A stretch of 64,000 nucleotides of DNA from Flavobacteriaceae bacterium (GTDB lineage Bacteria; Bacteroidota; Bacteroidia; Flavobacteriales; Flavobacteriaceae). The notes below the pieces were generated by a model, which worked only from the letters and a program-made list of their open reading frames with translations, did not search any database and was not told where the DNA came from. Shown piece by piece: positions 14,267-61,168 of this stretch (within the stretch, counting starts at the first letter, position 1; each line of letters opens with the position of its first letter). The stretch is from positions 212,292-276,291 of the forward strand of contig PBHD01000001.1 of NCBI GenBank assembly GCA_002719315.1. The letters run 5' to 3'. Made by a program: the position numbers and the translations under genes.

Positions 14267-14369
14267 ATATTATAAATTTAATTAATTATTGATTTTCCAA
14301 CCCTGATTAAAAAAATAAATTATAAACATATATATTTAACTTTATATCAAAATGAATTAATTTGCACAA

Positions 14370-24182: not shown

Positions 24183-24836
24183 TTAATTGTTTTTTTTATG
24201 GTCAGCAAGAAACTTTGCTAAACCAATATCTGTTAATGGGTGTTTTAAAAGTCCTTTTATTGCAGATATAGGACCAGTCATAACATCAGCTCCAATCTTT
24301 GCGCAATTAATAATATGCATTGTGTGTCTAATAGATGCAGCTAAAATTTCTGTTTCATAGGCATAATTATCATAAATATCTCTAATCTCACTAATTAAAT
24401 TTAATCCATCAGTAGATACATCATCTAATCTTCCAATAAAAGGCGAAACATAAGTTGCTCCAGCTTTTGCTGCAAGAAGAGCTTGACCAGCAGAAAAAAT
24501 TAGAGTGCAATTTGTTTTTATTCCTTTATCTGAAAAATATCTTAATGCTTTAACTCCTTCTTCAATCATTGGAACTTTAACAACTATTTGCGAATGTAAT
24601 GAAGCTAATTTTTCACCTTCTTCAACAATTCCTTCAAAATCGACTGAAATAACCTCTGCAGACACATCTCCTTTAACTAAATTACAAATGTTAACATAAT
24701 GATTTAATATATCTTTTTCTCCACTAATACCCTCTTTCGCCATTAAACTAGGATTGGTAGTTACACCATCTAAAATACCAAGAGATTGTGCTTCTTTGAT
24801 TTCTTCTAAATTAGCTGTGTCAATAAAAAATTTCAT
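24183..24836 (-). CDS. fsa: Fructose-6-phosphate aldolase / transaldolase-like protein
   Basis: 'MKFFIDTANLEEIKEA..GILDGVTTNPSLMAKEG', 'VKVPMIEEGVKALRYFSDKGIKTNCTLIFSAGQALLAAKAGATYVSPFIGRLDD'. Confidence 0.95.
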   Translation of the reverse strand: MKFFIDTANLEEIKEAQSLGILDGVTTNPSLMAKEGISGEKDILNHYVNICNLVKGDVSAEVISVDFEGIVEEGEKLASLHSQIVVKVPMIEEGVKALRYFSDKGIKTNCTLIFSAGQALLAAKAGATYVSPFIGRLDDVSTDGLNLISEIRDIYDNYAYETEILAASIRHTMHIINCAKIGADVMTGPISAIKGLLKHPLTDIGLAKFLADHKKNN

Positions 24837-24840
24837 ATTA

Positions 24841-24848
24841 CAAATTTA
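24841..24848 (-). promoter_or_regulatory. Putative -7 element TAAATTTG for fsa (leaderless spacing)
   Basis: Minus-strand TAAATTTG with 4-nt spacer to ATG 24836; its first three bases are the stop codon of the upstream SDR gene. Confidence 0.5.
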
Positions 24849-25652: not shown

Positions 25653-25668
25653 AAATAAACACAAAAAA

Positions 25669-25762
25669 GGCAAGCTACCTACATCACACCGCTACAACCG
25701 TATACCCTTGCTGCGTTCCCGCCCTGGGGGATTAAACAGGAGCTGGTTGTGTAGGACTTGCC
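25669..25762 (-). ncRNA. ffs: Signal recognition particle RNA, small bacterial type
   Basis: Minus strand: ggcaag...cagGGCGGGAACGCAGCAAGGG...cttgcc. Contains GCG-GGAA-CGC tetraloop hairpin, conserved AGCA loop strand and closing terminal helix ggcaag/cttgcc, followed by a U-tract. Confidence 0.95.
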
Positions 25763-25766
25763 ATAA

Positions 25767-25774
25767 CAAATATA
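25767..25774 (-). promoter_or_regulatory. Putative -7 element TATATTTG for SRP RNA
   Basis: Minus-strand TATATTTG 4 nt before the RNA 5' end, with TTG 17 nt upstream as a possible -33 element. Confidence 0.65.
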
Positions 25775-25831
25775 AGCTCTTACATTGATTTCAACAATCA
25801 TTTTATTTGCTTAATTTTGAAAAAAAAAAAA

Positions 25832-28618: not shown

Positions 28619-28626
28619 TAAATTTG
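28619..28626 (+). promoter_or_regulatory. Putative -7 element TAAATTTG for smpB (leaderless spacing)
   Basis: TAAATTTG with 4-nt spacer (AAAA) to GTG start 28631. Confidence 0.5.
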
Positions 28627-28630
28627 AAAA

Positions 28631-29098
28631 GTGCAAAAACAAATTAATATCCAAAACAAAAAAGCAAAATATGAGTATAGTTTTATTCAAAATTATACAG
28701 CTGGAATTGTATTGACTGGTAGTGAAATAAAATCTATTAGAAATGGAGAAGCTTCAATCAATAATAGTTTTTGTGAATTTAATGATAGGCAAGAGTTATT
28801 TATTATAAACATGCAAATAAATAAATATTCTGCAAGCTCAATTTTTAATCACAATCCAAAAGCTTCAAGAAAATTGCTTTTAAAAAAAAATGAATTAAAA
28901 AAACTATCAAAAGAGGTTAAATCAAATGGTTTAACTATAATACCAATTAAATTATACATAAATGAAAAAGGAATTGCCAAATTACTTATTTCTCTTGCTA
29001 AAGGAAAAAAATTATATGATAAAAGAGTTAATATAAAAAACAGGGAAATAAAAAGAGATCTAGACAGATTAAACAAATCTTTTAAAAATAAAAATTAG
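28631..29098 (+). CDS. smpB: SsrA-binding protein SmpB (GTG start)
   Basis: 'NKKAKYEYSFIQNYTAGIVLTGSEIKSIRNGEASINNSFCEF', 'ISLAKGKKLYDKRVNIKNREIKRDLDR'. Confidence 0.96.
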   Translation: MQKQINIQNKKAKYEYSFIQNYTAGIVLTGSEIKSIRNGEASINNSFCEFNDRQELFIINMQINKYSASSIFNHNPKASRKLLLKKNELKKLSKEVKSNGLTIIPIKLYINEKGIAKLLISLAKGKKLYDKRVNIKNREIKRDLDRLNKSFKNKN

Positions 29099-29736
29099 AT
29101 TTTATCCTTAAGAAGTGGGACAAACCTAAATTCTCCAAAAGTTTCTTTTGTAAATTTTTTTTCTTCTTCTCTTTTAACCCTTGTCATAACTTGAGTTTTA
29201 ATTCCAACAGGTATGACTAAACAACCTCCTAATTTTATTTGTGATAAAAGAGCTTTTGGAATTTCCTCTGATCCAGCTGTTACAATAATACCATCATAAG
29301 GAGCAAATTCAGGCAACCCTTTATAACCATCTCCAAAAATTATTTTTTTTGGCATGTAACCTATTTTTGACAATAAAAGATTTGTTTTTTTAAATAATTT
29401 TGATTGTCTTTCGATTGAATATACTTTGCAACCCAAGTTAACTAAAATAGATGTTTGATAACCAGAACCTGTTCCAATTTCTAAAACCTTGTCGCCTTTT
29501 TTTAAATTTAATAATTCTGTTTGAAAAGCTACTGTATAAGGTTGTGATATTGTTTGTTCTGCAGCAATTGGATAGGCTTTATCCTCATATGCAAAAGGTT
29601 CTAAGCCCTTTTCCATAAAAAGATGCCTTGGAATTGATTTAATTGAATTTAGAACATCTTTGTTAGAAATACCTTTATTAATTAACTTTTTAACCAATTG
29701 CCTTCTTAAACCTTTGTGTTTATTATTATCAACCAT
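29095..29736 (-). CDS. pcm: Protein-L-isoaspartate O-methyltransferase
   Basis: 'EQTISQPYTVAFQTELLNLKKGDKVLEIGTGSGYQTSIL', 'DGIIVTAGSEEIPKALLSQIKLGGCLVIPVG'. Confidence 0.95.
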   Translation of the reverse strand: MVDNNKHKGLRRQLVKKLINKGISNKDVLNSIKSIPRHLFMEKGLEPFAYEDKAYPIAAEQTISQPYTVAFQTELLNLKKGDKVLEIGTGSGYQTSILVNLGCKVYSIERQSKLFKKTNLLLSKIGYMPKKIIFGDGYKGLPEFAPYDGIIVTAGSEEIPKALLSQIKLGGCLVIPVGIKTQVMTRVKREEEKKFTKETFGEFRFVPLLKDKI

Positions 29737-29740
29737 AATG

Positions 29741-29748
29741 CAAAAATA
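29741..29748 (-). promoter_or_regulatory. Putative -7 element TATTTTTG for pcm (leaderless spacing)
   Basis: Minus-strand TATTTTTG with 4-nt spacer to ATG 29736. Confidence 0.45.
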
Positions 29749-47812: not shown

Positions 47813-47820
47813 TATATTTG
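47813..47820 (+). promoter_or_regulatory. Putative -7 element TATATTTG for prfB (leaderless spacing)
   Basis: TATATTTG with 5-nt spacer to ATG 47826. Confidence 0.5.
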
Positions 47821-47825
47821 AAAAA

Positions 47826-48915
47826 ATGATTTCAACAGATAATTATAAAAATTTAATTGATCGCCATGGTGCGTTAAGGAGGTATCTTTGACATAGATTC
47901 AAAAATTATTGAACTAAAAAATAAAGAAGAAATAACATCTGATCCATTATTTTGGAATGATAAAAAAAATGCTGAAAAAAACCTCAAAGCTATAAGTTAC
48001 TTAAAACAATGGATTGATCAATTTAATGAAATTACTTCTAAACTTGAAGATCTAGAAGTTTTATTTGAATTTCAAAAAAATGGAGAATTAGAATATTCAG
48101 AATTAGAAGAAAGTTATAATACAGCATTAGAATTAATTGAGTCATTAGAATATAGAAATATGTTGTCTAATGAGGGTGATGATCTGTTTGCTGTGCTTCA
48201 AATAACTTCTGGAGCCGGAGGTACCGAAAGTTGTGATTGGTCTGAAATGCTAATGAGAATGTATATTATGTGGGCAGAAAAAAAAGGATTTAAAATAAAA
48301 GAGCTAAATAATCAACCGGGCGACGTAGCTGGGATTAAAACGGTAACATTACAAATTGATGGGGCATATGCTTTTGGATGGTTAAAAGGAGAAAATGGTG
48401 TGCACAGACTTGTTCGTATTTCTCCTTTTGATAGTAATGCCAAAAGACATACTTCTTTTGCTTCTGTATATGTATATCCATTAGTAGATGAAGATATTGA
48501 AATTGAAATTTTATCTTCTGACATTACATGGGAGACTATGAGGTCAAGTGGCGCTGGTGGGCAGAGTGTTAATAAAATAGAAACAGCAGTAAGATTAAAA
48601 CATAAACCTTCAGGTATCGTTATAGAAAATTCTGAAACTAGATCTCAACTAGAAAATAAAAATAAAGCTCTACAGCTTCTAAAATCACAACTTTATGAAA
48701 TTGAATTGCAAAAAAAAATGAAAGAAAGAGATAAAATAGAAGACTCTAAAATGAAAATTGAATGGGGATCTCAAATTAGAAACTATGTTATGCATCCATA
48801 CAAGCTTGTCAAAGATGTAAGAACCCAAAAAGAAATAAAGGATGTTGAAAGTATAATGAATGGAAACATAGATCCTTTTTTAAAATCATATTTAATGATG
48901 AAAGGTAATAATTAA
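47826..48915 (+). CDS. prfB: Peptide chain release factor 2, with programmed +1 frameshift at the in-frame TGA 47889-47891
   Basis: Frame 0: ATG ATT TCA ... TTA AGG AGG TAT CTT TGA C; frame +1 continues DIDSKIIELKNKEEITSDPLFWNDKKNAEKNLKAISYLKQ... into the listed ORF (GAGGTESCDWSEMLMRMY, SSGAGGQSVNKIETAVRLKH). Confidence 0.97.
47877..47892 (+). promoter_or_regulatory. RF2 programmed frameshift site: internal Shine-Dalgarno plus CTT TGA C slippery/stop context
   Basis: AGGAGG TAT CTTTGAC; same layout as the classical prfB site. Confidence 0.95.
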
Positions 48916-53033: not shown

Positions 53034-54093
53034 ATTTCAATAAAAAATATCCTAAAAACCCAAAAATTATCAATGGAAGCCAAGCAGCTAAAAAGGGAGA
53101 GAAAGTTGATTTAGCTACTAATACACCAAAAATTTTATCAAAAAAAACAAAAATAAAACCAAGAGAAATTCCAAAAGCAAGATTAAAACCCATACCTCCC
53201 CTTCTTTTAAAAGATGAAACAGAAACAGCTATAATTGTTAAAATAAAAACAGAAAAAGGTGTGCTCCATCTCTTATGTCTAACCAAAAGATGTTCATTTA
53301 TAAGATTTGATCCTCTAACTTTTTCATCACTAATAAACTTGTTTAAATCAAAAAATGTTAAAGTTTCAGCTAAATAAGTAACTGGAGCTAAATCATCAAT
53401 AGAAAAATCTAAAAGAGTATCTTTTCTAGATAGTTTTTCATAAATCTCTTTATCTGAAATAAAGGTTCTTTTAGAATAATTTGAGAGTCTAAACAAACTG
53501 TCTCTTTCAATCCATCTAATAGTTTTAGCTTTAATTTTAAATTTCAATTTATTACCTTCAAAATGTTCAAGAGTAAAATTGTTGGCTCTTTTTCTTCTTG
53601 GATCATAATTACTTACATAAATAAATTCATTTTCATTAATTTGTTGAAAAACATTTGATGTGTTTCTTTCTTTTTTCTTGTTTATATACTTGTATCTAAA
53701 TTCATTATAACCAAGATTAGATTTTGGAATTATAAATGACCCTGCAATAAATGAAAAAACAAAAATTATACTTGACGAAATTAAATATGGTTTTAAAAAA
53801 CGAGAAAAAGATATTCCAGATCCCAAAATAGCAATAATCTCTGTATTACTTGCTAGTTTTGAGGTAAACCATATAACTGAAAGAAAAAGGAAAACAGGAT
53901 AAAGAATATTTGCAAAGTGCCATGTAAAATCAAGATAATAATTTATTATTTCATTAAAAGGAACTTCTTTTTCTCGAAACTTGTCTATTTTTTCTGCAAT
54001 ATCAACCATTACTCCTATAGGTATAAATAATAATAACATTACAAAAAATGTTGTCAAGTATTTTTTTATAATATATCTATCAATAATTTTCAT
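53020..54093 (-). CDS. LptF/LptG (YjgP/YjgQ)-family LPS export permease
   Basis: 'IIDRYIIKKYLTTFFVMLLLFIPIGVMVDI', 'PVFLFLSVIWFTSKLASNTEIIAILGSGISFSRFLKPYL'. Confidence 0.92.
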   Translation of the reverse strand: MKIIDRYIIKKYLTTFFVMLLLFIPIGVMVDIAEKIDKFREKEVPFNEIINYYLDFTWHFANILYPVFLFLSVIWFTSKLASNTEIIAILGSGISFSRFLKPYLISSSIIFVFSFIAGSFIIPKSNLGYNEFRYKYINKKKERNTSNVFQQINENEFIYVSNYDPRRKRANNFTLEHFEGNKLKFKIKAKTIRWIERDSLFRLSNYSKRTFISDKEIYEKLSRKDTLLDFSIDDLAPVTYLAETLTFFDLNKFISDEKVRGSNLINEHLLVRHKRWSTPFSVFILTIIAVSVSSFKRRGGMGFNLAFGISLGFIFVFFDKIFGVLVAKSTFSPFLAAWLPLIIFGFLGYFLLKYARQ

Positions 54094-55220
54094 AACCTAT
54101 TGCCCAATTTACTAATCATTTTTGATTTCCATAAAGAAAATGTACCCTCTAAAATTTGTTTTCGTGATTCATTTAACAACCAATTATAAAAACCTAAGTT
54201 ATGAATTGAAGCTATTTGTTTCCCTAAAATCTCATTTATAGAAAATAAATGCCTTAAATAAGCTTTCGAATATTCATGGTCAACAAAAGTATAATTTTTA
54301 TTATCTATGACTGAAAAATCATTTTCCCATTTTTTGTTTTTAATATTTATTGTTCCTTCTGAAGTAAAAAGCATTCCATTTCGAGCATTTCTAGTAGGCA
54401 TAACACAATCAAACATGTCTACACCTAAAGATATATTTTCAAGAATATTAATAGGGGTTCCAACTCCCATTAAATAACGAGGCTTATTTTCAGGCAGAAT
54501 AGAACAAACGGTTTCTACCATTTCATACATTTCCTCATCAGGCTCACCTACAGATAACCCTCCAATTGCATTTCCTTTACAATTTTTTTCTGAAATAAAA
54601 TTTGCTGATATTTTCCTTAACTCTTTATTTGTTGATCCTTGAACTATAGGAAAAAGAGTTTGTAACCACTCGTATTTATATGACAATTTTTTATGATGAA
54701 TTAAACACCTTTTCAACCATCTATGAGTTCTTTCCATAGAATCTTTATTATAGTTGTAATTTTTAGAATATGGTGGACATTCATCAAATGCCATTATTAT
54801 GTCTGCTCCTATTGACCTTTGAATTTCTATTACATTTTCTGGTGTAAAAAAATGATAAGATCCGTCAATATGTGATTTGAATTTCACTCCACTCTCTTTA
54901 ATTTTTCTGTTACTAGACAAAGAATATACTTGATATCCGCCTGAATCAGTCAAAATAGGTTTATTCCAATTCATAAAACTGGATAGTCCCCCAGCATTTT
55001 CAATTATTTTTATACCAGGTCTTAAATACAAATGATATGTATTAGCTAAAATAATGTCTGGTTTTATATCATTCTTTAGTTCTCTTTGATGAATACCCTT
55101 TACATTTGCTGATGTTCCAACTGGCATAAAAACTGGAGTTTTAATTATTCCGTTTGATGTTTTAATTAAACCAGCTCTTGCAGAAGATAATTTGTCTTTT
55201 GATACTAAGTCAAATTCCAT
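54090..55220 (-). CDS. tgt: Queuine tRNA-ribosyltransferase
   Basis: 'ARAGLIKTSNGIIKTPVFMPVGTSANVKGI', 'LTDSGGYQVYSLSSNRKI', 'GGLSVGEPDEEMYEMVE', 'DCVMPTRNARNG'. Confidence 0.97.
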   Translation of the reverse strand: MEFDLVSKDKLSSARAGLIKTSNGIIKTPVFMPVGTSANVKGIHQRELKNDIKPDIILANTYHLYLRPGIKIIENAGGLSSFMNWNKPILTDSGGYQVYSLSSNRKIKESGVKFKSHIDGSYHFFTPENVIEIQRSIGADIIMAFDECPPYSKNYNYNKDSMERTHRWLKRCLIHHKKLSYKYEWLQTLFPIVQGSTNKELRKISANFISEKNCKGNAIGGLSVGEPDEEMYEMVETVCSILPENKPRYLMGVGTPINILENISLGVDMFDCVMPTRNARNGMLFTSEGTINIKNKKWENDFSVIDNKNYTFVDHEYSKAYLRHLFSINEILGKQIASIHNLGFYNWLLNESRKQILEGTFSLWKSKMISKLGNRL

Positions 55221-55225
55221 TAAAA

Positions 55226-55233
55226 CAAATATA
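55226..55233 (-). promoter_or_regulatory. Putative -7 element TATATTTG for tgt (leaderless spacing)
   Basis: Minus-strand TATATTTG with 5-nt spacer to ATG 55220. Confidence 0.5.
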
Positions 55234-55353: not shown

Positions 55354-56199
55354 ATGTCAAATATCAAAAAACTTCAAGACATAGTTATTCAAGTAAGAAG
55401 AGATATTTTAAGAATGGTCCATAAAGTTAATTCGGGTCACCCAGGTGGTTCTCTTGGCTGTGCTGAATTTTTTGTTGCATTATTTTATGATATAATGGAA
55501 ATTAAAATGCCCTTTGATATGAATGGAATAAATCAAGATGTTTTTTTTCTTTCTAATGGTCATATATCCCCTGTTTTTTATAGTGTTTTATCTAGAAAAG
55601 GATTTTTTCCTATTAAAGAATTGGAAACTTTTAGATTAATTAATTCAAGACTTCAAGGTCATCCTACAACACATGAGGGACTTCCTGGAATTAGAGTAGC
55701 ATCTGGATCTTTAGGTCAAGGATTATCTGTTTCGATTGGCGCTTCTATATCCAAAAAATTAAATAAAGATTCTAAAACAGTATACGTTTTACTCGGAGAT
55801 GGTGAACTGCAAGAAGGACAAAATTGGGAAGCTATCATGTTTGCAGCTGCAAATAATGTTGATAATTTAATTGCTACTGTAGATGTTAATGGAAAACAAA
55901 TTGATGGAACAACTGATGAGGTTTTAAACTTAGGAAATCTCAAAATGAAATTTACATCATTTGGATGGGAAGTAATACTTTTAAATAAAGGTAATAATAT
56001 TTCTGAGGTGATAAAATCTCTAAATGAAGCTAAATCAAAATTAGGTAATGGTAAGCCTATTGTTATATTGATGAAAACAGAAATGGGAAATGGAGTTGAT
56101 TTTATGATGAACACCCATGCCTGGCACGGTATTGCCCCTAATGATCAACAATTAAAAATTGGACTTAAACAAAACCCTGAAACTATAGGTGATTATTAA
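55354..56199 (+). CDS. Transketolase, N-terminal (thiamine-binding) subunit
   Basis: 'MVHKVNSGHPGGSLGCAEFFVALFYDIM', 'GHPTTHEGLPGIRVASGSLGQGLSVSIGA', 'VLLGDGELQEGQNWEAIMFAA'. Confidence 0.95.
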   Translation: MSNIKKLQDIVIQVRRDILRMVHKVNSGHPGGSLGCAEFFVALFYDIMEIKMPFDMNGINQDVFFLSNGHISPVFYSVLSRKGFFPIKELETFRLINSRLQGHPTTHEGLPGIRVASGSLGQGLSVSIGASISKKLNKDSKTVYVLLGDGELQEGQNWEAIMFAAANNVDNLIATVDVNGKQIDGTTDEVLNLGNLKMKFTSFGWEVILLNKGNNISEVIKSLNEAKSKLGNGKPIVILMKTEMGNGVDFMMNTHAWHGIAPNDQQLKIGLKQNPETIGDY

Positions 56200-60012: not shown

Positions 60013-60020
60013 TATATTTG
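60013..60020 (+). promoter_or_regulatory. Putative -7 element TATATTTG for the tRNA cluster
   Basis: TAnnTTTG match 11 nt before the first tRNA-Lys. Confidence 0.5.
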
Positions 60021-60301: not shown

Positions 60302-60309
60302 TATATTTG
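60302..60309 (+). promoter_or_regulatory. Putative -7 element TATATTTG upstream of crtB
   Basis: TAnnTTTG match 19 nt before ATG 60329. Confidence 0.4.
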
Positions 60310-60328: not shown

Positions 60329-61168
60329 ATGATAAGTCTCTTCAATAATATTAGTCAGGAATTTAGCAAACAAGTGACAATTAAATATAGCACATCATTT
60401 TCCTTAGCTACTAAAACATTAGATTCTTCAATCAGAAATCATATATATAACATTTATGGTTTTGTCCGTTTTGCAGATGAAATAGTTGACACTTTTCATG
60501 ACTTTCCTAAAAAAGAGCTTTTAGAAAATTTTGAAAAAAATTTATTGATGGCATTAGATAATAAAATTAGCTTAAATCCTATTTTAAATTCATTTCAAAT
60601 TACTGTTAATAAATTTAATATTGATTACTCTTTAATTGAAGCTTTTTTAAAAAGCATGAGGTGGGATTTAAATAAAAAAGAATATAAATCACAAAAAGAA
60701 TATAAAAAATATATATATGGATCTGCAGATGTAGTTGGTCTAATGTGTTTAAAAGTTTTTGTTAATGGAGATCAATTAAAATATGATGAGCTAATGCCAA
60801 ATGCAATGGCTCTTGGATCAGCATTTCAAAAAGTGAATTTTTTAAGAGACTTAAAAAATGATTTTGAAAATTTAAATAGATCTTATTTTCCAAATATTGA
60901 TTTTACTAACTTTTCTGAAGAATCAAAAAAAAGAATAATTAATGAAATTAAAAATGATTTTAATTTAGCATTAAAAGGAATCAAAAAGCTCCCTAATACT
61001 TCTAAATTAGGAGTTTATACTGCGTATAAATATTATTACAAATTACTCAATAAGTTAGAAAACACTCCTTCTGTTAAAATTAAATCTACAAGAATTAGAA
61101 TACCAAATTATCAAAAAATTAAACTTTTATTGTACTCTTATTTTCAACATCAATTTAAATTTATATAA
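60329..61168 (+). CDS. crtB: Phytoene synthase (squalene/phytoene synthase family)
   Basis: 'YSTSFSLATKTLDSSIRNHIYNIYGFVRFADEIVDTF', 'YIYGSADVVGLMCLKVF', 'ALGSAFQKVNFLRDLKNDFENLNRSYFP'. Confidence 0.93.
   Translation: MISLFNNISQEFSKQVTIKYSTSFSLATKTLDSSIRNHIYNIYGFVRFADEIVDTFHDFPKKELLENFEKNLLMALDNKISLNPILNSFQITVNKFNIDYSLIEAFLKSMRWDLNKKEYKSQKEYKKYIYGSADVVGLMCLKVFVNGDQLKYDELMPNAMALGSAFQKVNFLRDLKNDFENLNRSYFPNIDFTNFSEESKKRIINEIKNDFNLALKGIKKLPNTSKLGVYTAYKYYYKLLNKLENTPSVKIKSTRIRIPNYQKIKLLLYSYFQHQFKFI

Follow-up and report, generated by a model that had tools for sequence, protein, structure and literature searches.

Promoter boxes a few nucleotides before start codons in a Flavobacteriaceae genome: a small class of predicted near-leaderless genes

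The window analysed here, a stretch of 64,000 nt with a GC content of 26%, belongs to a MAG of 2.10 Mb (17 contigs, 89% complete, 6.9% contamination, scattered Ns), whose nearest Tgt relatives in GTDB belong to the Flavobacteriaceae and are in many cases marine. It carries fsa, smpB, pcm, prfB and tgt, identified with NCBIfam models at scores above the cut-off, together with a small SRP RNA and an M20 peptidase gene (PF01546) that begins at ATG 14370. Each of these is closely preceded by the octamer TAnnTTTG, or, at the peptidase gene, by a version of it with one mismatch (Table 1). The housekeeping sigma factor of Bacteroidota uses TAnnTTTG as its -7 box. The initial annotation had proposed that the boxes before start codons give leaderless or near-leaderless messages, and all of its motif coordinates were recovered. 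Distances are given below as the gap, i.e. the number of nucleotides between the last G of TAnnTTTG and the start codon. No other in-frame ATG, GTG or TTG lies upstream of the six starts (fsa, smpB, pcm, prfB, tgt and 14370) before a stop codon, and the only downstream in-frame start within 60 nt is a TTG at +39 in pcm, and the short distance to the box is therefore not due to a wrongly placed start.

Table 1. Boxes, genes and RNA in the window, in order of position
Feature	Position	Strand	Details
One-mismatch box TTAATTTG	14357..14364	+	gap 5, before ATG 14370
fsa	24183..24836	-	TIGR00875, 283 bits
TAAATTTG before fsa	24841..24848	-	gap 4, TAAATTTG-TAAT-ATG; doubtful promoter
Small SRP RNA	25664..25762	-	Rfam RF04183, 104 bits, match 25664-25770
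SRP RNA -7 box TATATTTG	25767..25774	-	TATATTTG-TTAT-GGCAAG
SRP promoter TTGTTG, -33 element region (about -35 to -30)	25792..25797	-	from sequence
smpB -7 box TAAATTTG	28619..28626	+	gap 4, TAAATTTG-AAAA-GTG
smpB, GTG start, predicted leaderless (0 nt leader)	28631..29098	+	NF003843, 179 bits
pcm, predicted leaderless in this lineage	29095..29736	-	NF001453, 221 bits
pcm -7 box TATTTTTG	29741..29748	-	gap 4, TATTTTTG-CATT-ATG
prfB -7 box TATATTTG	47813..47820	+	gap 5, TATATTTG-AAAAA-ATG
prfB with +1 frameshift site AGGAGGTATCTTTGAC, predicted near-leaderless	47826..48915	+	TIGR00020, 465 bits
tgt, predicted near-leaderless (0-1 nt)	54090..55220	-	TIGR00430, 472 bits
tgt -7 box TATATTTG	55226..55233	-	gap 5, TATATTTG-TTTTA-ATG

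The SRP RNA promoter was used to calibrate the start point. The 5' end of the RNA at 25762 was inferred from its GGCAAG core and not from the Rfam match, which begins at 25770, inside the box, and runs 8 nt (25763-25770) upstream of the likely 5' end; the 5' boundary of RF04183 seems too long for Flavobacteriaceae. Across 30 Flavobacteriaceae genera, TAnnTTTG stood 4 nt before GGCAAG in 10, 5 nt before it in 19 and 6 nt before it in one, which agrees in every genus with the calibration that had been drawn from the window. With this spacing, leaders should measure 0-1 nt at a gap of 4-5 and about 1-4 nt at a gap of 6-8. The SRP promoters also share a TTG at -34 to -32, 83-93% conserved in 29 family members, and are rich in A from -42 to -38 and from -21 to -18. 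At holB, at the SRP RNA and, more weakly, at smpB the box comes with an A-rich block at -20 to -18. The -33 element, present at the SRP RNA, is not visible at smpB or holB. That clear -33 elements are mostly missing had been entered as a caveat to the leaderless proposal; as an objection it is not strong, as weak -33 elements are the norm in Flavobacterium johnsoniae according to the RNA-seq study of that species (PMC6847099), which also places the start 4-5 nt after the box and an AT-rich element at -18.

The positions of the box relative to genes were tallied over 1.06 Mb, about half of the genome (the window plus 50 stretches of 20 kb), for 855 genes called with our own simple gene caller, and expected counts were taken from 60 shuffles. 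The main hump lay at gap 14-25, with 87 genes against 10.4 expected. At gap 3-5 there were 18 of the 855 genes, compared with 2.5 expected and a shuffle maximum of 6. Genes whose upstream neighbour is divergent must have a promoter of their own, and they contributed 13 of 266 (1.0 expected, shuffle maximum 4), whereas among the 312 genes lying ≤30 nt from a co-directional neighbour there was a single case, fsa (0.8 expected). Gap 4-5 occurred in 12 of the 266 divergent genes versus one of the 312 operon-internal genes (Fisher p 0.0009) and stood above gap 6-14 both for all genes (binomial p 0.0055) and for divergent genes (p 0.002); gap 4 alone accounted for 11 genes, the mean at other gaps from 0 to 14 being 2.7. 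In total, about 160 genes had a box at gap 0-40, and 28 had one at gap 3-8 (~5 expected by chance). By box spacing the genes fall into two classes, a large leadered one and, set apart from it, a small near-leaderless one, and the peak at 4-5 nt on which the initial annotation had staked its proposal is present in this histogram. GTG starts were more frequent at gap 4-5 (3/16) than elsewhere (26/839) in the same sample (p 0.015). One of the sampled stretches (G000:C5:1-20000) had a GC content of 37% and hardly any called genes, the remainder of the genome being mostly 25-30% GC.

Relatives were searched at the family level in 61 Flavobacteriaceae genera, 20 kb stretches from five genomes were sampled in addition, and the near-leaderless class in relatives was defined as gap 3-8. 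The strongest prediction of a leaderless or near-leaderless message from these comparisons, together with that for tgt, concerns smpB, the GTG of which is its only standard start (an in-frame TGA lies at -6) and the upstream neighbour of which is divergent. The gap was 3-8 in 56 of 63 Flavobacteriaceae genomes against 0.47 expected, which upholds the original suggestion for this gene, and near-leaderless spacing was also found beyond the family in about eight of 36 sampled Bacteroidia genomes, from seven families. The genera share ancestry, but the sequence around the smpB box is mostly unconserved among them, so that the box is not simply inherited sequence. The smpB gaps reach 8, with a mode of 6, and those of tgt reach 6, so that the leaders may measure 1-4 nt and not 0 nt. 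All six near-leaderless smpB genes of the family that start with GTG have a gap of exactly 4, for which the chance is about 5e-5 (13 gap-4 genes of 56) if they are independent, although the six come from small, possibly related genomes and are not fully so; one further near-leaderless GTG-started smpB was found outside the family (L144). The gap of 4 shared by the six would fit recognition of a 5'-terminal start codon, with G as the first RNA base.

The tgt gene has a divergent neighbour at 55354. Among 80 relatives its gap was 5-6 in 31, 14-22 in 37 and 10 in two, and its proposed near-leaderless status is thereby well supported; Tenacibaculum and Lutibacter are examples of genera with the near spacing. 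The holB gap was 3-8 in 23 of 30 family members (3-4 in 22), and that of rlmH 3-5 in 13 of 29; for each of smpB, holB, rlmH and tgt, 0.1-0.6 near-leaderless cases were expected by chance. At pheS the box stood at a greater gap in 26 of 30, mostly 17-25, the gap being 5 in the present genome and 4 in one relative. Gaps of 9-13 were rare throughout the genes compared among relatives. Judged by box spacing, one architecture prevails for each gene, and changes between the predicted leadered and near-leaderless forms have occurred repeatedly. Apparently near-leaderless genes of replication and repair include holB and dnaX, the latter with a gap of 7 here and of 6 in G047. A dnaB-like and a priA-like gene in G053 and a uvrA-like gene in G047, all three recognised from their N-terminal sequence alone, look near-leaderless as well.

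Both prfB and pcm have divergent upstream neighbours, that of pcm 70 nt away, and unambiguous starts in this genome, but their relatives are mostly not near-leaderless. For prfB the gap in relatives was mostly 15-19, with gap 4-5 found here and in about three others; the near spacing of pcm was shared by one of 27 relatives tallied (G020, gap 5), nearly all others being leadered or without a clear box. It is plausible that the two genes are near-leaderless in this lineage, with little conservation. Within the prfB frameshift site AGGAGGTATCTTTGAC lies TATCTTTG (47883-47890), a perfect match to the -7 box, and TATCTTTGAC recurs in most prfB genes of the family, an inherent source of false hits when the motif is scanned for.

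The proposal for fsa, in contrast, is probably wrong. It is doubtful because the box overlaps the stop codon TAA (24846-24848) of a co-directional SDR gene upstream, from which fsa is separated by only 9 nt. None of 27 relatives had a near-leaderless fsa, nearly all being leadered or without a clear box, and one relative with a similar fsa upstream sequence (G004) had no box. Probably fsa is co-transcribed with the SDR gene and the box is a chance or minor match.

The explanation that we favour, and consider very probable, is that TAnnTTTG at gap 4-5 marks a promoter giving leaderless or near-leaderless mRNAs, conserved in a gene-specific manner; both the transcription start point and the mode of translation are deduced here from promoter spacing. 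RNA polymerase would start 4-5 nt beyond the final G of the box, and at a gap of 4-5 (tolerated range 3-8) the transcript would have its 5' end on the AUG or GUG or only a few bases from it, and would be translated as a leaderless message without an upstream ribosome-binding region. Leaderless translation is established in other bacteria. The class would be small and discrete, beside ordinary leadered promoters with a gap of 14-25 and a leader of about 10-20 nt. Its spacing would have been maintained across Flavobacteriaceae for smpB, holB and partly rlmH and tgt, and would have arisen in this or a few lineages for prfB, pcm and pheS. The core of the initial proposal is thus retained, given the 4-5 nt peak and the conservation at smpB and tgt, but not for fsa, and with prfB and pcm mostly unlike their relatives.

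In a genome of 26% GC an octamer of this kind falls near starts now and then, and the hits in the window were hand-picked. The warning that chance matches were likely is apt in so far as the word has no overall excess in the window (121 observed versus 128 expected) and fsa resembles such a case. For the class as a whole, however, chance is refuted by the spacing kept at smpB and holB across tens of genera, and it is also at odds with the positional enrichment over shuffles and with the confinement of the box to genes dependent on a promoter of their own; we give it very little credence. Alternatively, transcription might start further upstream, from another promoter, with the TTTG-containing sequence acting as a translation-enhancing element. 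Translation in Bacteroidota does depend on bases upstream of the start, adenines above all, according to the F. johnsoniae study (PMC6847099), but such an element would be needed equally in operon-internal genes, where the box at gap 4-5 is all but missing, and the same box serves a non-coding RNA at the SRP locus, which makes this reading highly improbable.

The near-leaderless spacing could also have come about simply because intergenic regions were compacted as the genome was streamlined, leaderlessness itself not being selected. Near-leaderless genes made up 37 of 243 motif-bearing genes in three genomes of 1.8-2.1 Mb versus four of 69 in three of 3.4-3.9 Mb (Fisher p 0.044), and the spacing of fsa, pcm, prfB and pheS is rarely met elsewhere. 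Against this, genomes of 3-5 Mb also have smpB and holB at near-leaderless spacing, and relatives fall into two classes with no continuum between them, as at tgt. We regard compaction as an unlikely account of the class, though one to be taken seriously; the size comparison hints weakly that, beyond a conserved core, streamlining has produced further cases specific to a lineage.

Shine-Dalgarno sequences are almost lacking in Bacteroidota, whose leaderless mRNAs have been measured as rare and set aside. The promoters described here resemble those of Bacteroidota sigma-ABfr (-33/-7; TTTG / TAnnTTTG) in the -7 box, in the 4-5 nt to the inferred SRP RNA start, in what appears to be a weak or absent -33 element at most genes and in the A-rich block near -18. 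As in the leaderless mRNAs of Actinobacteria and Deinococcus-Thermus, the box is fixed just upstream of ATG or GTG and leaves no room for a leader, but in those groups it is TANNNT, about 12 bp before the start, a different sigma box, and leaderless genes average 19% and 39%, respectively (PMC3160421), compared with a few percent of genes here. Closer at hand, three RNA-seq studies describe a minority class in the same phylum and with the same box: 3.7% of 5'UTRs are under 10 nt in B. thetaiotaomicron (PMC7366714), 5.5% are leaderless in F. psychrophilum (PMC9723704), and 13% of predicted transcripts lack a leader above 10 nt in F. johnsoniae (PMC6847099). Shares as low as 3.7-5.5% in other Bacteroidota count against the explanation favoured here. 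Conserved leaderless genes are not reported in the parts of those studies consulted, whereas the near-leaderless spacing of smpB and holB is conserved across the family here, and literature searches pairing leaderless mRNAs with either smpB or holB brought up no account of such an arrangement. A leaderless minority in Bacteroidota is already known; its gene-specific conservation at smpB and holB is, as far as we have found, new.

Conserved near-leaderless genes such as smpB and holB, across some 60 genera, are natural test cases for whether this phylum has two modes of initiation and for why ribosome rescue would use the leaderless mode. For annotation, TAnnTTTG 3-8 nt before a codon can be taken as a sign of a probable leaderless start. 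A speculative reading, to which we attach a low probability, is that the conserved set (smpB, holB, rlmH and tgt, with prfB and tilS in some lineages) is kept for leader-independent initiation, so that rescue, termination and clamp-loader functions are expressed when initiation is impaired; if that were true, the boundary between two modes of initiation would show in how few leaders of about 5-9 nt there are.

Many smpB promoters (L023-L051, L161-L191) read TAGTTTTG or TAGCTTTG, with G at -10. This differs from the F. johnsoniae consensus TAHHTTTG, G at -10 being reported as virtually absent from promoters of that species (PMC6847099), and a strict TAHHTTTG was rejected as too narrow, many smpB boxes having G at the third position. 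Elsewhere in the window, TATATTTG occurs at 60013-60020, 11 nt before a tRNA-Lys/Lys/Leu cluster, and at 60302-60309, 19 nt before an ORF at 60329, in both cases as for an ordinary promoter.
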